Positions 172 to 59,077 of a DNA stretch of 64,000 nt are shown piece after piece (position 1 is the stretch's first letter; each line of letters starts with the position of its first letter). The notes under the pieces were generated by a model that worked only from the letters and a program-made list of their open reading frames with translations, had not been told where the DNA came from and searched no databases. The DNA is from Adlercreutzia hattorii (GTDB taxonomy: Bacteria; Actinomycetota; Coriobacteriia; Coriobacteriales; Eggerthellaceae): positions 977,001-1,041,000 of the forward strand of contig NZ_AP022829.1 of NCBI RefSeq assembly GCF_011405655.1, in the 5' to 3' direction. Both the position numbers and the translations under genes were made by a program.

Positions 172-189
172 CGGAGGCAACCGTGCATG

Positions 190-309
190 GCGAGGCGGGG
201 GCGCTGGTGCCGCGCGCAGTTCATTCTATGGCATGCGAAAACGCCGTGACCCCCGGCGAGAAATGCCATAGAATGCTGTTTGAGCACGGCACTTGTGCCC
301 CCGCATCGC
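190..309. repeat. Structured intergenic repeat, copy S1
   Basis: About 120 bp between moeA and mogA folds as nested inverted repeats. The outer arms (190-212 and 287-309) pair imperfectly. The inner arms are a perfect 13-bp pair, CATTCTATGGCAT at 222-234 and its complement at 263-275. Between the two stems lie the unpaired conserved strings GCAGTTC and GCTGTTTGAGC. Copies S2, S3 and S4 share these strings. The element sits just before the mogA ribosome-binding site, so it could be transcribed with the operon. Its function is unknown. Confidence 0.75.
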
Positions 310-350
310 CCCTGGGGGTTTCAAGGGAGCTGCTAAGAAAGGAAGTAAAA

Positions 351-2564: not shown

Positions 2565-2621
2565 AAAGCGATGCGCAGCGACCGCCAAGGTGCGCAGCAG
2601 GTTGAAGGAGAGCGATGCGCA

Positions 2622-2741
2622 GCGAGCGCCGGGAGGGGGTGCCGCGCGCAGTTCATTCTATGGCATACGAAAATGCCGCGACTCTCGGTGAGAAATGCCA
2701 TAGAATGCTGTTTGAGCACGGCACCCCCTCCCGGCGCTCGC
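2622..2741. repeat. Structured intergenic repeat, copy S2
   Basis: This is the best-formed copy. A perfect 23-bp outer inverted repeat (2622-2644 with 2719-2741) surrounds a perfect 13-bp inner pair (2654-2666 with 2695-2707). The inner part and the strings GCAGTTC and GCTGTTTGAGC match S1 closely, but the outer arms have a different sequence that still pairs. Just upstream, a segment containing GCGATGCGCAGCGA occurs twice about 42 bp apart. It lies between alr and the uracil-DNA glycosylase gene. Confidence 0.82.
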
Positions 2742-2785
2742 CCGAGGCGAGTCCCGACGAGGAACTCAAGAAAGAAGGACGCCCG

Positions 2786-15404: not shown

Positions 15405-15418
15405 CTGCTTGGCTGTCC

Positions 15419-15548
15419 GGCCCGAGTCCCCGGGGAGGAAGCCCGCGCTCAAACAGCATTGAGGCGCGGATCGCTTCGAGGGCTTCGGGCTCTCCCTTTT
15501 TGCACTTCAATGAACTGCGCGCGGGCCCCCTCCCCGGGGACTTGGGCC
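15419..15548. repeat. Structured intergenic repeat, copy S3 (reverse orientation)
   Basis: This 130-bp copy lies between prs and pth and is inverted relative to S1 and S2. The outer arms are 20-bp inverted repeats (15419-15438 and 15529-15548, one mismatch), extended by GCCCGCGC/GCGCGGGC. The conserved strings appear as GCTCAAACAGC and GAACTGC, the complements of those in S1 and S2. The inner stem is short (CATTGA/TCAATG) and its loop differs from the other copies. Confidence 0.75.
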
Positions 15549-15565
15549 TACTCTTCCAAAGATGA

Positions 15566-29898: not shown

Positions 29899-30080
29899 GA
29901 TGTGGGGAGACGTCGGGTGCCTTGACCGAGCGAGTTCCGCAGATGGTACCGAAGGCGCAGCGAGAAGGGGAGAAGTAAGCCCTGACGCCTTCGATACCAG
30001 CGAGGACTGTTTGAGCGAATCAAGGTACCCGGCGGCTCCCCTTCCAGTTGCTTTCAATATAGTATTCAAGAAAGGTTGAG
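29886..30080. mobile_element. Structured repeat copy S4 between 14-bp direct repeats
   Basis: CAAGAAAGGTTGAG occurs at 29886-29899, covering the rel stop codon, and again at 30067-30080 as the ribosome-binding site of the next gene. Between them lies a 167-bp segment with a nested palindrome (29908-30037). Its outer arms are CGGGTGCCTTGA/TCAAGGTACCCG and its inner arms TGGTACCGAAGGCG/CGCCTTCGATACCA. It carries the family strings AGTTC and CTGTTTGAGC. Removing the segment and one repeat would leave rel and the next gene four bases apart, so this looks like an insertion with target duplication. Confidence 0.72.
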
Positions 30081-51224: not shown

Positions 51225-51235
51225 CGCGACGCTGC

Positions 51236-51336
51236 GGGTCCGACAGGCACCTGGCCTTGCCCCTTGTCTTTGCCACGGCGCGGCACGAAGGCCGCTTGGG
51301 CAAAAGGCGGGGCAAATCCAGGCACCTGTCGGACCC
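51236..51336. repeat. Long imperfect hairpin between ppaC and the M20 peptidase
   Basis: GGGTCCGACAGG at the left is complementary to the right end, CCTGTCGGACCC. The pairing continues inwards through CTTGCCCC/GGGGCAA and further to a small loop near 51286. About 40 bp of stem forms, with mismatches. No other copy was found in the window. It could be a MITE remnant or a structured RNA. Confidence 0.6.
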
Positions 51337-51400
51337 TCGCTGTTTTCCTTGGGCGCATCCCTGCGACAAAAAATTTAGGAATTTGGAAAGAAGGACCCTC

Positions 51401-57580: not shown

Positions 57581-59077
57581 ATGGTAGGAATTACGAAGGA
57601 CGATGGCGCGCTACCGTCTCAGGGGCTAGGAGGGGCTTCCGAGAAGAGCGGGCTTTTGGTGGTTCTCGGGTATATTGGCGCCCAAACGTGGCTTCCCATT
57701 GTCGGCGTGGTAGCCGATATGTATCGCGGGGGCGATCTGGCGCTGTCGGGGCTGAACCCCCTTCTCTTTTCTTATCTTGTTGTTTTGGGGACGACGGCGT
57801 GCGCAGCGTCTTTCGCGCGTTGGAGGGACGAATGGTCTCGAGGCGTCTTCGGGGCGTTTGCGGGCGCGTTGGCTGCCATCGCCGGCGCAGCGCTTCTGCT
57901 CGTTCCCGAACGGGGCGCCTCTGTGGCAGTTGCGGTTCTGCGCGTCGTGTCCGGCGCGCTGCTCGGCTTGGGCGGCGGTTTGCTCACCATGGTATGGAGC
58001 GAACGCTTTGGACGGCTGGATGCTCCGGCGCGCTCCCGGGTTTCGTTTCTCGTCGTACTCGCTGCCTGCCTGCTGGCGGCCTTCGCTCAGTCCATAGGCA
58101 TCCACTGGTTGCTGCTTGCAGTGGTCGCCGTGTTCTCGGCGGTGTCCAGCGCCTTGTTCATGGTGTCGGCGTCTCGCGGTGAGGCTCCTGCTAAAACCTC
58201 TTCGCCAGTGACGCATCTGCAGGGGGCTTTTGTTCGCATTATCGCGTCCTATGGCCTGTTCGGCCTTGTCTTCGCCCTGATGATCACGCAGTTTCTCATT
58301 GCGCGTCACGGTCACGCCCTGTCGTGGACATGGCTTTTGAGCCTTTCGGGCGTCGTTATCTCCCTCGTGGTCGAGGTTGTGGCAAAGGCGCTGCTCAAAC
58401 AGGGATTCAGCTGGCTGCTCCTTCTACGCTTTGCGGCCATACCGATACTTGTGGCTTTTTACCCCTTCGATGCCGGAAGCGAATTCTCCCTGCGCTTTGC
58501 CATGGGGGCCTCGGCGGTGGCTCTGTGGGTGTACCTTTCCTTGGTGGGTGGCATCGAGGCGGAGGCGGCCGGGCAGATTCGCGTACCTTTTGCTATCGTG
58601 CGGGGTGTGGCTCTGGGCGCGCTTGCTCTGGGCGCGGCTTTGGGGTCGAGTTTGGCGCTTATGATGGAGAGCCTCGATCTCCAGGGCCACGTGAGCGTGA
58701 CGGCCATCGCGGCCATGGTGCTTGCTGTTATCGCGTCGGATATGGTGTTGACGCGCGGAAGTTTGGCGCGGGCCTACAAGAGGGCCGTAACTGCCGCAGG
58801 GGGCAAAGAGGCGGAGTCTGCTGACGGCGGTACGCCTTTCGATGAGCGGGTCGCGGCCGTGGCTGAGGTCTACGCGCTGACTGAGCGAGAGGCAGAGGTT
58901 CTGGGCATTCTGGCGCGCGGGCATGGGCTGGGTCGCGTTCAGGAGGTGCTTTTCATTGCCGAGGGAACCGCCATTACTCATCGTCGGCACATTTATCAGA
59001 AGCTCGATGTCCATTCCAAGGCCGAGCTCATCGATCTCGTCTCCGGCTTCGGAGATGATGGGATAGATGACGATTGA
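57581..59077 (+). CDS. LuxR-type regulator with a 12-helix membrane domain
   Basis: The 498-residue protein has about twelve hydrophobic helices (residues 20-395) arranged like a transporter, then a linker and a C-terminal LuxR helix-turn-helix. In the latter, LTEREAEVLGILARGHG and ITHRRHIYQKLDVHSKAELIDLV match the GerE-type fold. Membrane-embedded LuxR proteins of this kind are numerous in Eggerthellaceae and usually sit next to reductase genes. It probably senses the reductase substrate or a related signal and controls the divergent cytochrome-flavoprotein operon. GGGAGGG lies upstream of the ATG. Confidence 0.87.
   Translation: MVGITKDDGALPSQGLGGASEKSGLLVVLGYIGAQTWLPIVGVVADMYRGGDLALSGLNPLLFSYLVVLGTTACAASFARWRDEWSRGVFGAFAGALAAIAGAALLLVPERGASVAVAVLRVVSGALLGLGGGLLTMVWSERFGRLDAPARSRVSFLVVLAACLLAAFAQSIGIHWLLLAVVAVFSAVSSALFMVSASRGEAPAKTSSPVTHLQGAFVRIIASYGLFGLVFALMITQFLIARHGHALSWTWLLSLSGVVISLVVEVVAKALLKQGFSWLLLLRFAAIPILVAFYPFDAGSEFSLRFAMGASAVALWVYLSLVGGIEAEAAGQIRVPFAIVRGVALGALALGAALGSSLALMMESLDLQGHVSVTAIAAMVLAVIASDMVLTRGSLARAYKRAVTAAGGKEAESADGGTPFDERVAAVAEVYALTEREAEVLGILARGHGLGRVQEVLFIAEGTAITHRRHIYQKLDVHSKAELIDLVSGFGDDGIDDD

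Follow-up and report, generated by a model that had tools for sequence, protein, structure and literature searches.

The closest described systems are the integron attC sites, the REP sequences (the GTAG- and CGTC-tagged superfamilies with TnpA-REP/RAYT) and the REPINs. In an attC site one folded strand is recognised through extrahelical bases, and the sequence of the stem is largely free. The hairpin family of Adlercreutzia hattorii described here resembles these sites in that its stem sequence is free and that recognition of a folded strand is proposed. However, its units are dispersed between housekeeping genes, no cassettes were seen, and its core strings appear unlike the attC boxes. Two reports on REPs (PMC3733652, PMC8266576) describe them with a GTAG foot, a mid-stem mismatch and head-to-head dimers. 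Like REPs, our elements are multicopy, extragenic, imperfect palindromes that prefer co-directional and convergent spacers; a mismatch recurs within their stems, some of them form head-to-head dimers, and many show a GTAG-like 5' foot. Unlike REPs, which measure 20-40 bp, they are about 95-145 bp long, their stem sequence is not conserved between the copies, their centre is occupied by a conserved two-stranded core, and most of the Adlercreutzia genomes that carry them have no Y1 transposase. Since length, stem conservation and cognate transposase fail the REP definition, we regard the family as REP/REPIN-like in its working and do not class it as REP. With REPINs it shares the arrangement of two inverted hairpins that keep a constrained spacing and are found or missing as a whole. 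The difference is that, in the pairs read here, one half is of subtype B and the other of subtype C, both being long hairpins, with a small palindrome such as CTCAACCATGGTTGAG joining them.

The window, i.e. the whole analysed stretch of 64,000 nucleotides of the A. hattorii genome, contains the four copies that a preliminary description had reported from the sequence, and all of them fold as it described. Copy 1 (type A, 182..321, plus strand) pairs the outer arms 190-212 with 287-309, and its core strings AGTTC and CTGTTTGAGC are read at 218-222 and 276-285. Copy 2 (type A, 2614..2753, plus strand) has outer arms at 2622-2644 and 2719-2741 that form 23 uninterrupted pairs, with AGTTC at 2650-2654 and CTGTTTGAGC at 2708-2717. 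Copy 3 (type A, 15411..15552) lies on the minus strand between genes that were named from the sequence as prs and pth, with CTGTTTGAGC at 15447-15456 and AGTTC at 15512-15516. Copy 4 (29904..30041, plus strand), which was placed by the type B alignment, has outer arms at about 29904-29925 and 30020-30041, AGTTC at 29933-29937 and CTGTTTGAGC at 30007-30016. Copies 1, 2 and 3 belong to the nine type A copies, all of the A. hattorii genome, from which our covariance model R1 was built, so their R1 scores (132.7 bits with an E-value of 2.8e-25, 137.8 bits and 121.8 bits, respectively) are not independent.

The fold z-scores calculated with RNA parameters were -6.0, -8.75 (approximately -8.8), -8.2 and -7.5 for copies 1 to 4, copy 3 being folded on the plus strand although the element is on the minus strand, and no shuffle equalled the native sequence for any of the four. 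With DNA parameters the core strands gave -5.8, -8.4, -5.3 and -6.4. Copies 1-3 share one type of inner stem whereas that of copy 4 is different, which means that the inner stem is variable, not the outer stem alone. The earlier statement that the outer stems differ from copy to copy yet stay paired, with up to 23 perfect pairs, is therefore correct and can be refined. One further CTGTTTGAGC string occurs alone at 58393-58402; inspection of the surrounding sequence by eye revealed no AGTTC partner and no evident hairpin. The window also contains a long hairpin of an unlike kind, GGGTCCGACAGGTGCCTGG...CCAGGTGCCTGTCGGACCC, at 51235-51340 on the minus strand, in a spacer that holds a member of the AGTTC/CTGTTTGAGC family in two other genomes (G002 and G005).

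A genome-wide search with the pattern AGTTCN{40,70}CTGTTTGAGC gave 14 matches as opposed to none for the reversed control pattern. R1 found 27-33 matches in the A. hattorii genome, with both strands of some loci counted, and a count by hand gave about 25 loci of the hairpin family. Every other Adlercreutzia genome searched had 1-16 matches, and matches were found in 8 of 33 genera (41 genomes), including other genera and families of Coriobacteriales; the weaker matches outside A. hattorii were accepted only where the core strings could be read in the sequence. The R1 matches are about 86-167 bp long, most of them 95-145 bp. A search of 396 genomes of the phylum for the pattern GCGCAGTTCN{16,46}CTGTYTGAGC detected it in 15 of the 38 Coriobacteriia among them and in 1 of the other 358 genomes; the control gave 2 matches overall. 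The preliminary description had proposed a covariance-model search of Coriobacteriia; carried out with the nine type A copies, it found further copies widely, i.e. this is a genome-wide family that extends across the class. We found no description of the core string or of matching Coriobacteriia repeats in the open literature. Plasmid records queried with one head-to-head unit and phage records queried with one element gave no match, nor was the Coriobacteriia form of the core matched in viral contigs. Among the top clusters of recurrent open reading frames near the elements, the largest apparently results from frames that run through the hairpins, and others trace shared orthologous loci.

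The general anatomy was deduced from 109 elements (108 of them distinct in the arm analysis) that were collected by a regular expression for the core and a pairing threshold, a procedure that favours well-paired copies. The consensus is GYAG-[outer arm]-CGCGCAGTTC-[inner hairpin]-CTGTYTGAGC-[arm']-CSGAC, where the outer arm is about 20-25 bp long and free in sequence, the sequence of the inner hairpin is also free, and close variants occur at the CGCGCAGTTC position. The GYAG at the 5' foot is degenerate and not universal, being present in 66 of the 109 elements as compared to 9-12 in shifted windows; CSGAS at the 3' foot is likewise found in 66 (5-7 in shifted windows). It is conspicuous that the stem mismatch is oriented: A on the 5' arm faces G on the 3' arm in 65 cases, the reverse (G.A) in 9. 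One copy (L059, at approximately 1505-1674 of G000:C1:81006-84148) has two right arms, of which the second is the pairing partner of the left arm; it looks like the product of an insertion of one element into another, or of a recombination between two.

Inverted partners are a further regular feature. Upstream of 22 of the 109 elements there is an inverted partner (head-to-head), and in 14 of these 22 the core-to-core distance is 77-79 nt, whereas none of the 109 has an inverted partner downstream (tail-to-tail). In the pairs that were read, the type B half faces the type C half round the small palindrome, and the type B of copy 4 is the partner half in the head-to-head units of the relatives. 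Type A was seen in the A. hattorii genome only. A few element pairs lie close to each other, and the genes between them read as housekeeping genes by their translations (gpsA, a desulfoferrodoxin-like protein, an aminotransferase, a PutP-like transporter and trigger factor), with no transposase among them. The resemblance to REP-type elements that the preliminary description had hinted at is visible in the GYAG foot, in the stem irregularity and in the head-to-head dimers.

In the alignment of the nine type A copies 94.8% of the cells are paired and 25 of the 43 pairs changed on both sides. None of 500 shuffles reached any of the covariation measures, and in the slid-partner controls the pairing fell to 36-45%. 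Since these nine copies also served to derive the structure, they must be expected to favour it somewhat; the margin, however, is very large. Within the outer helix 19 of 27 pairs change on both sides, the arms being different copy by copy. Compensatory change, as first proposed, is thus present. As for the selection on structure that had been read from it, the paired change stands but selection itself is not proven by it, because paired changes could also arise from a copying process by which inverted repeats are kept similar.

The way in which the arms change was followed in 15 comparisons of orthologous arms, some of which share a member. Of 390 pairs, 325 are identical, 26 changed from one Watson-Crick pair to another, and 36 are Watson-Crick in one member only. 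By simple arithmetic, about 2 compatible double changes would be expected if the two sides changed independently at the observed rate, as opposed to the 26 seen. On the other hand, the arms of one orthologous group (g3) are identical in four species, with flanks that are 83-98% identical, which indicates that the arms are stable at that site. Paired changes in some orthologues and identity in g3, taken together, suggest that the change is not steady and that it occurs in bursts or through replacement of the arms; substitution as well as independent insertion at the same site fit this behaviour.

The main and strongest rival to a mobile DNA palindrome enters at this point. In template switching (quasipalindrome correction) one arm would be copied onto the other, so that the paired changes would be mutational and selection would act on the core only. 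Homogenisation of inverted-repeat arms by this route is documented (PMC8604942, PMC3820800, PMC7202029). In agreement with it, some of the changes are in adjacent blocks; between L182 and L043, for instance, GA..CC became AG..AT on one arm with a matching change opposite. The unchanged arms of g3 and the 36 half-paired orthologous positions are harder to accommodate, and so are the oriented irregularities, which survive, i.e. the A.G excess described above and a G.T excess next to the core (see below). We consider template switching unlikely, and it is these persisting oriented irregularities that hold it back.

Covariation of this kind is used to find RNAs, and a very stable predicted fold is also in line with a structured RNA, i.e. 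a non-coding RNA or an mRNA 3' element with a conserved internal loop and covarying stems. The mismatches nevertheless are DNA-like. In the outer arms, at positions 15 and further from the core (roughly 1500 pairs), we counted 1460 Watson-Crick, 31 G.T and 36 A.C pairs (binomial p 0.63), and in the inner stems (about 1000 pairs) 999, 6 and 13, respectively; these are counts of elements that are not independent, as orthologues are included, from alignments that scored all mismatches alike. The collecting threshold used RNA energies, which would favour G.T and not A.C. There is thus no tolerance of G-U, whereas a structured RNA would be expected to accept G-U and to exclude A-C. The equal rarity of G.T and A.C in the arms is also what the copying of double-stranded inverted repeats is expected to give, which is a further point for template switching.

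The core-proximal positions 6-14 behave differently, with 139 G.T versus 5 A.C, part of the G.T being fixed sequence inherited by descent. This asymmetry means that one strand, the core strand, is special there, and it could also be that of an RNA. The symmetric mismatches of the outer arms, on the other hand, favour pairing in both strands (a cruciform, or copying of the arms) over recognition of one strand in that zone. With respect to the flanking genes, the elements in co-directional spacers are oriented 18 with and 21 against, i.e. about half are antisense to both neighbours, while 21 elements are in convergent and 4 in divergent spacers, according to a rough gene call in which 38 further elements stayed unassigned and 7 lay at edges. 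As G.T is as rare as A.C and the orientation is indifferent to the genes, a kept RNA structure is unlikely. Rfam 15 gave no match in the window at the gathering score, and six loci compared with Rfam at a relaxed E-value hit sub-threshold microRNA and sRNA models only. We regard a structured RNA as quite improbable. The preliminary description had left the choice between RNA and extruded or single-stranded DNA undecided; the data favour DNA, and to judge from the sequences the covariation looks to be kept at the DNA level rather than at that of RNA.

The location of the elements could suggest that they terminate transcription or stabilise mRNA ends and are fixed where genes end, given that the 3' end of the element is often about 10 bp from the stop codon of an opposing gene, that divergent spacers are rare, and that several species have elements in corresponding spacers. 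A plain terminator, however, needs neither a conserved internal core nor strand-specific irregularities, and the copies read show no conspicuous T tract downstream of the stem. In addition, several spacers differ in the presence of a unit between related species in which the genes are intact. We regard a terminator or stabiliser function as quite improbable.

This presence and absence was seen at several sites. Only one R1 match was found in a scan of 80 orthologous alr regions, and the alr-side spacers corresponding to those of copies 1 and 2 gave no R1 match in the orthologous regions scanned. In one genome (G006) the spacer between alr and UDG aligns with a 24-bp gap and the spacer before mog is about 10 bp, while in another (G003) there are 31 bp at the alr-UDG spacer. 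At a third site a whole head-to-head unit is present in G002 and a short spacer in A. caecimuris (G001); at a fourth, a head-to-head unit is present in A. caecimuris and absent from G002 and G003. The flanks at units that are present or absent between species are about 87-95% identical. No target-site duplication is visible, the diverged spacers leaving the exact junctions unplaced.

Several spacers are occupied in multiple species by different elements. The prs-pth spacer contains type A (copy 3) in A. hattorii versus type C (L187) in A. caecimuris, with the same outermost bases but different middle arms. The spacer 3' of gpsA is occupied in five species (L243, L229, L028, L038, L011) by elements of differing types and even of opposite orientation, and apparent remnants of older arms are found beside newer elements at this locus.

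A mobilising enzyme was sought among transposases of the Y1, IS91 and IS110 types. Y1_Tnp is missing from seven of nine Adlercreutzia genomes (some of them drafts), A. caecimuris included, and these seven carry 1-16 R1 matches each; it is also absent from G036, which has 8. The other two Adlercreutzia genomes have Y1_Tnp copies, six in A. hattorii (L015-L020) and one in G002, which all score like IS200 transposases. Two of the six IS200-like insertion sequences of A. hattorii stand in tandem at 2132178-2133320. As a source of the family the A. hattorii copies were rejected, since the two that were read end in unrelated hairpins. The RAYT-like genes of other Coriobacteriia (L263-L281) were rejected because no AGTTC/CTGTTTGAGC hairpin is beside them; many are flanked by unrelated long inverted repeats, such as GGGGACGG... 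and GACAAAAGGGGC.... IS91-type Y2_Tnp is absent from Adlercreutzia, and the IS110 type is absent from several carriers (e.g. G002, G003 and G036). The search among Y1_Tnp, IS91-type and IS110-type enzymes thus yielded none that tracks the hairpin family, and no gene-carrying version of the element was found. The link to a REP-associated tyrosine transposase, raised in the preliminary description, is not borne out in Adlercreutzia. A GTAG-REP family of the canonical type, moved by a RAYT (a Y1 transposase), would account for the GYAG foot, the mid-stem A.G mismatch and the head-to-head dimers, but with the transposase missing from so many carriers, and with the known candidates lacking the hairpin or ending in others, this explanation is very improbable.

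We favour, with about an even chance of being right, a non-autonomous, non-coding mobile DNA palindrome that is REP/REPIN-like and is recognised as folded DNA through its core. The element would be a dispersed palindrome of about 95-145 bp, with a head-to-head pair of about 300 bp as its fuller form. A structure-specific DNA recombinase acting in trans would recognise a single folded strand by three features, namely the two-stranded core (in which CGCGCAGTTC faces CTGTYTGAGC), the stem next to the core and the GYAG foot. The arms would be required just as inverted repeats, so the sequences of the outer and inner arms could drift in pairs. The presence or absence of units would then reflect transposition, pairing would be kept since only well-paired copies spread, and the mobilising enzyme would probably be encoded at an unlinked place. 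It has to be noted that the symmetric arm G.T and A.C counts fit cruciform extrusion or copying better than a one-strand reading. A more specific version, rather unlikely in our opinion, is a class-wide bipartite hairpin that is moved by a new structure-specific recombinase, not by a REP-type Y1/HUH enzyme, and that is read only by its two-stranded internal-loop motif, whatever the sequence of the arms.

Possible wider relatives were found in six contigs of a viral collection (L294-L299). These contain CTGTTTGAGCGNAGCGAGTTC, which is the core with its inner and outer sides exchanged, and in most of the six its position is at or close to the tip of a predicted hairpin. Three of them (L297-L299) have another inverted repeat, of the type TTTCTTTTG...CAAGACAAAAGAAA, after the CTGTTTGAGCGNAGCGAGTTC hairpin. 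The contig sequences suggest Bacteroidota and Pasteurellaceae as hosts, and the CTGTTTGAGCGNAGCGAGTTC hairpins apparently form a wide repeat family of other phyla. The CTGTTTGAGCGNAGCGAGTTC loop, GCGNAGC, is the very stable DNA mini-hairpin d(GCGNAGC), and a GCGNAGC loop is also present in some of the shortest Coriobacteriia forms. As the permuted motif is found in Bacteroidota- and Pasteurellaceae-like contigs, the system could reach far beyond Coriobacteriia.

Covarying stems are the usual sign of a structured RNA, and here a strong signal of this kind is apparently carried by DNA palindromes; counting G.T versus A.C by zone helps to tell RNA pairing from DNA pairing. Between the housekeeping genes of common gut bacteria the hairpin family also gives rise to gains and losses, and its existence suggests an enzyme acting on folded DNA.
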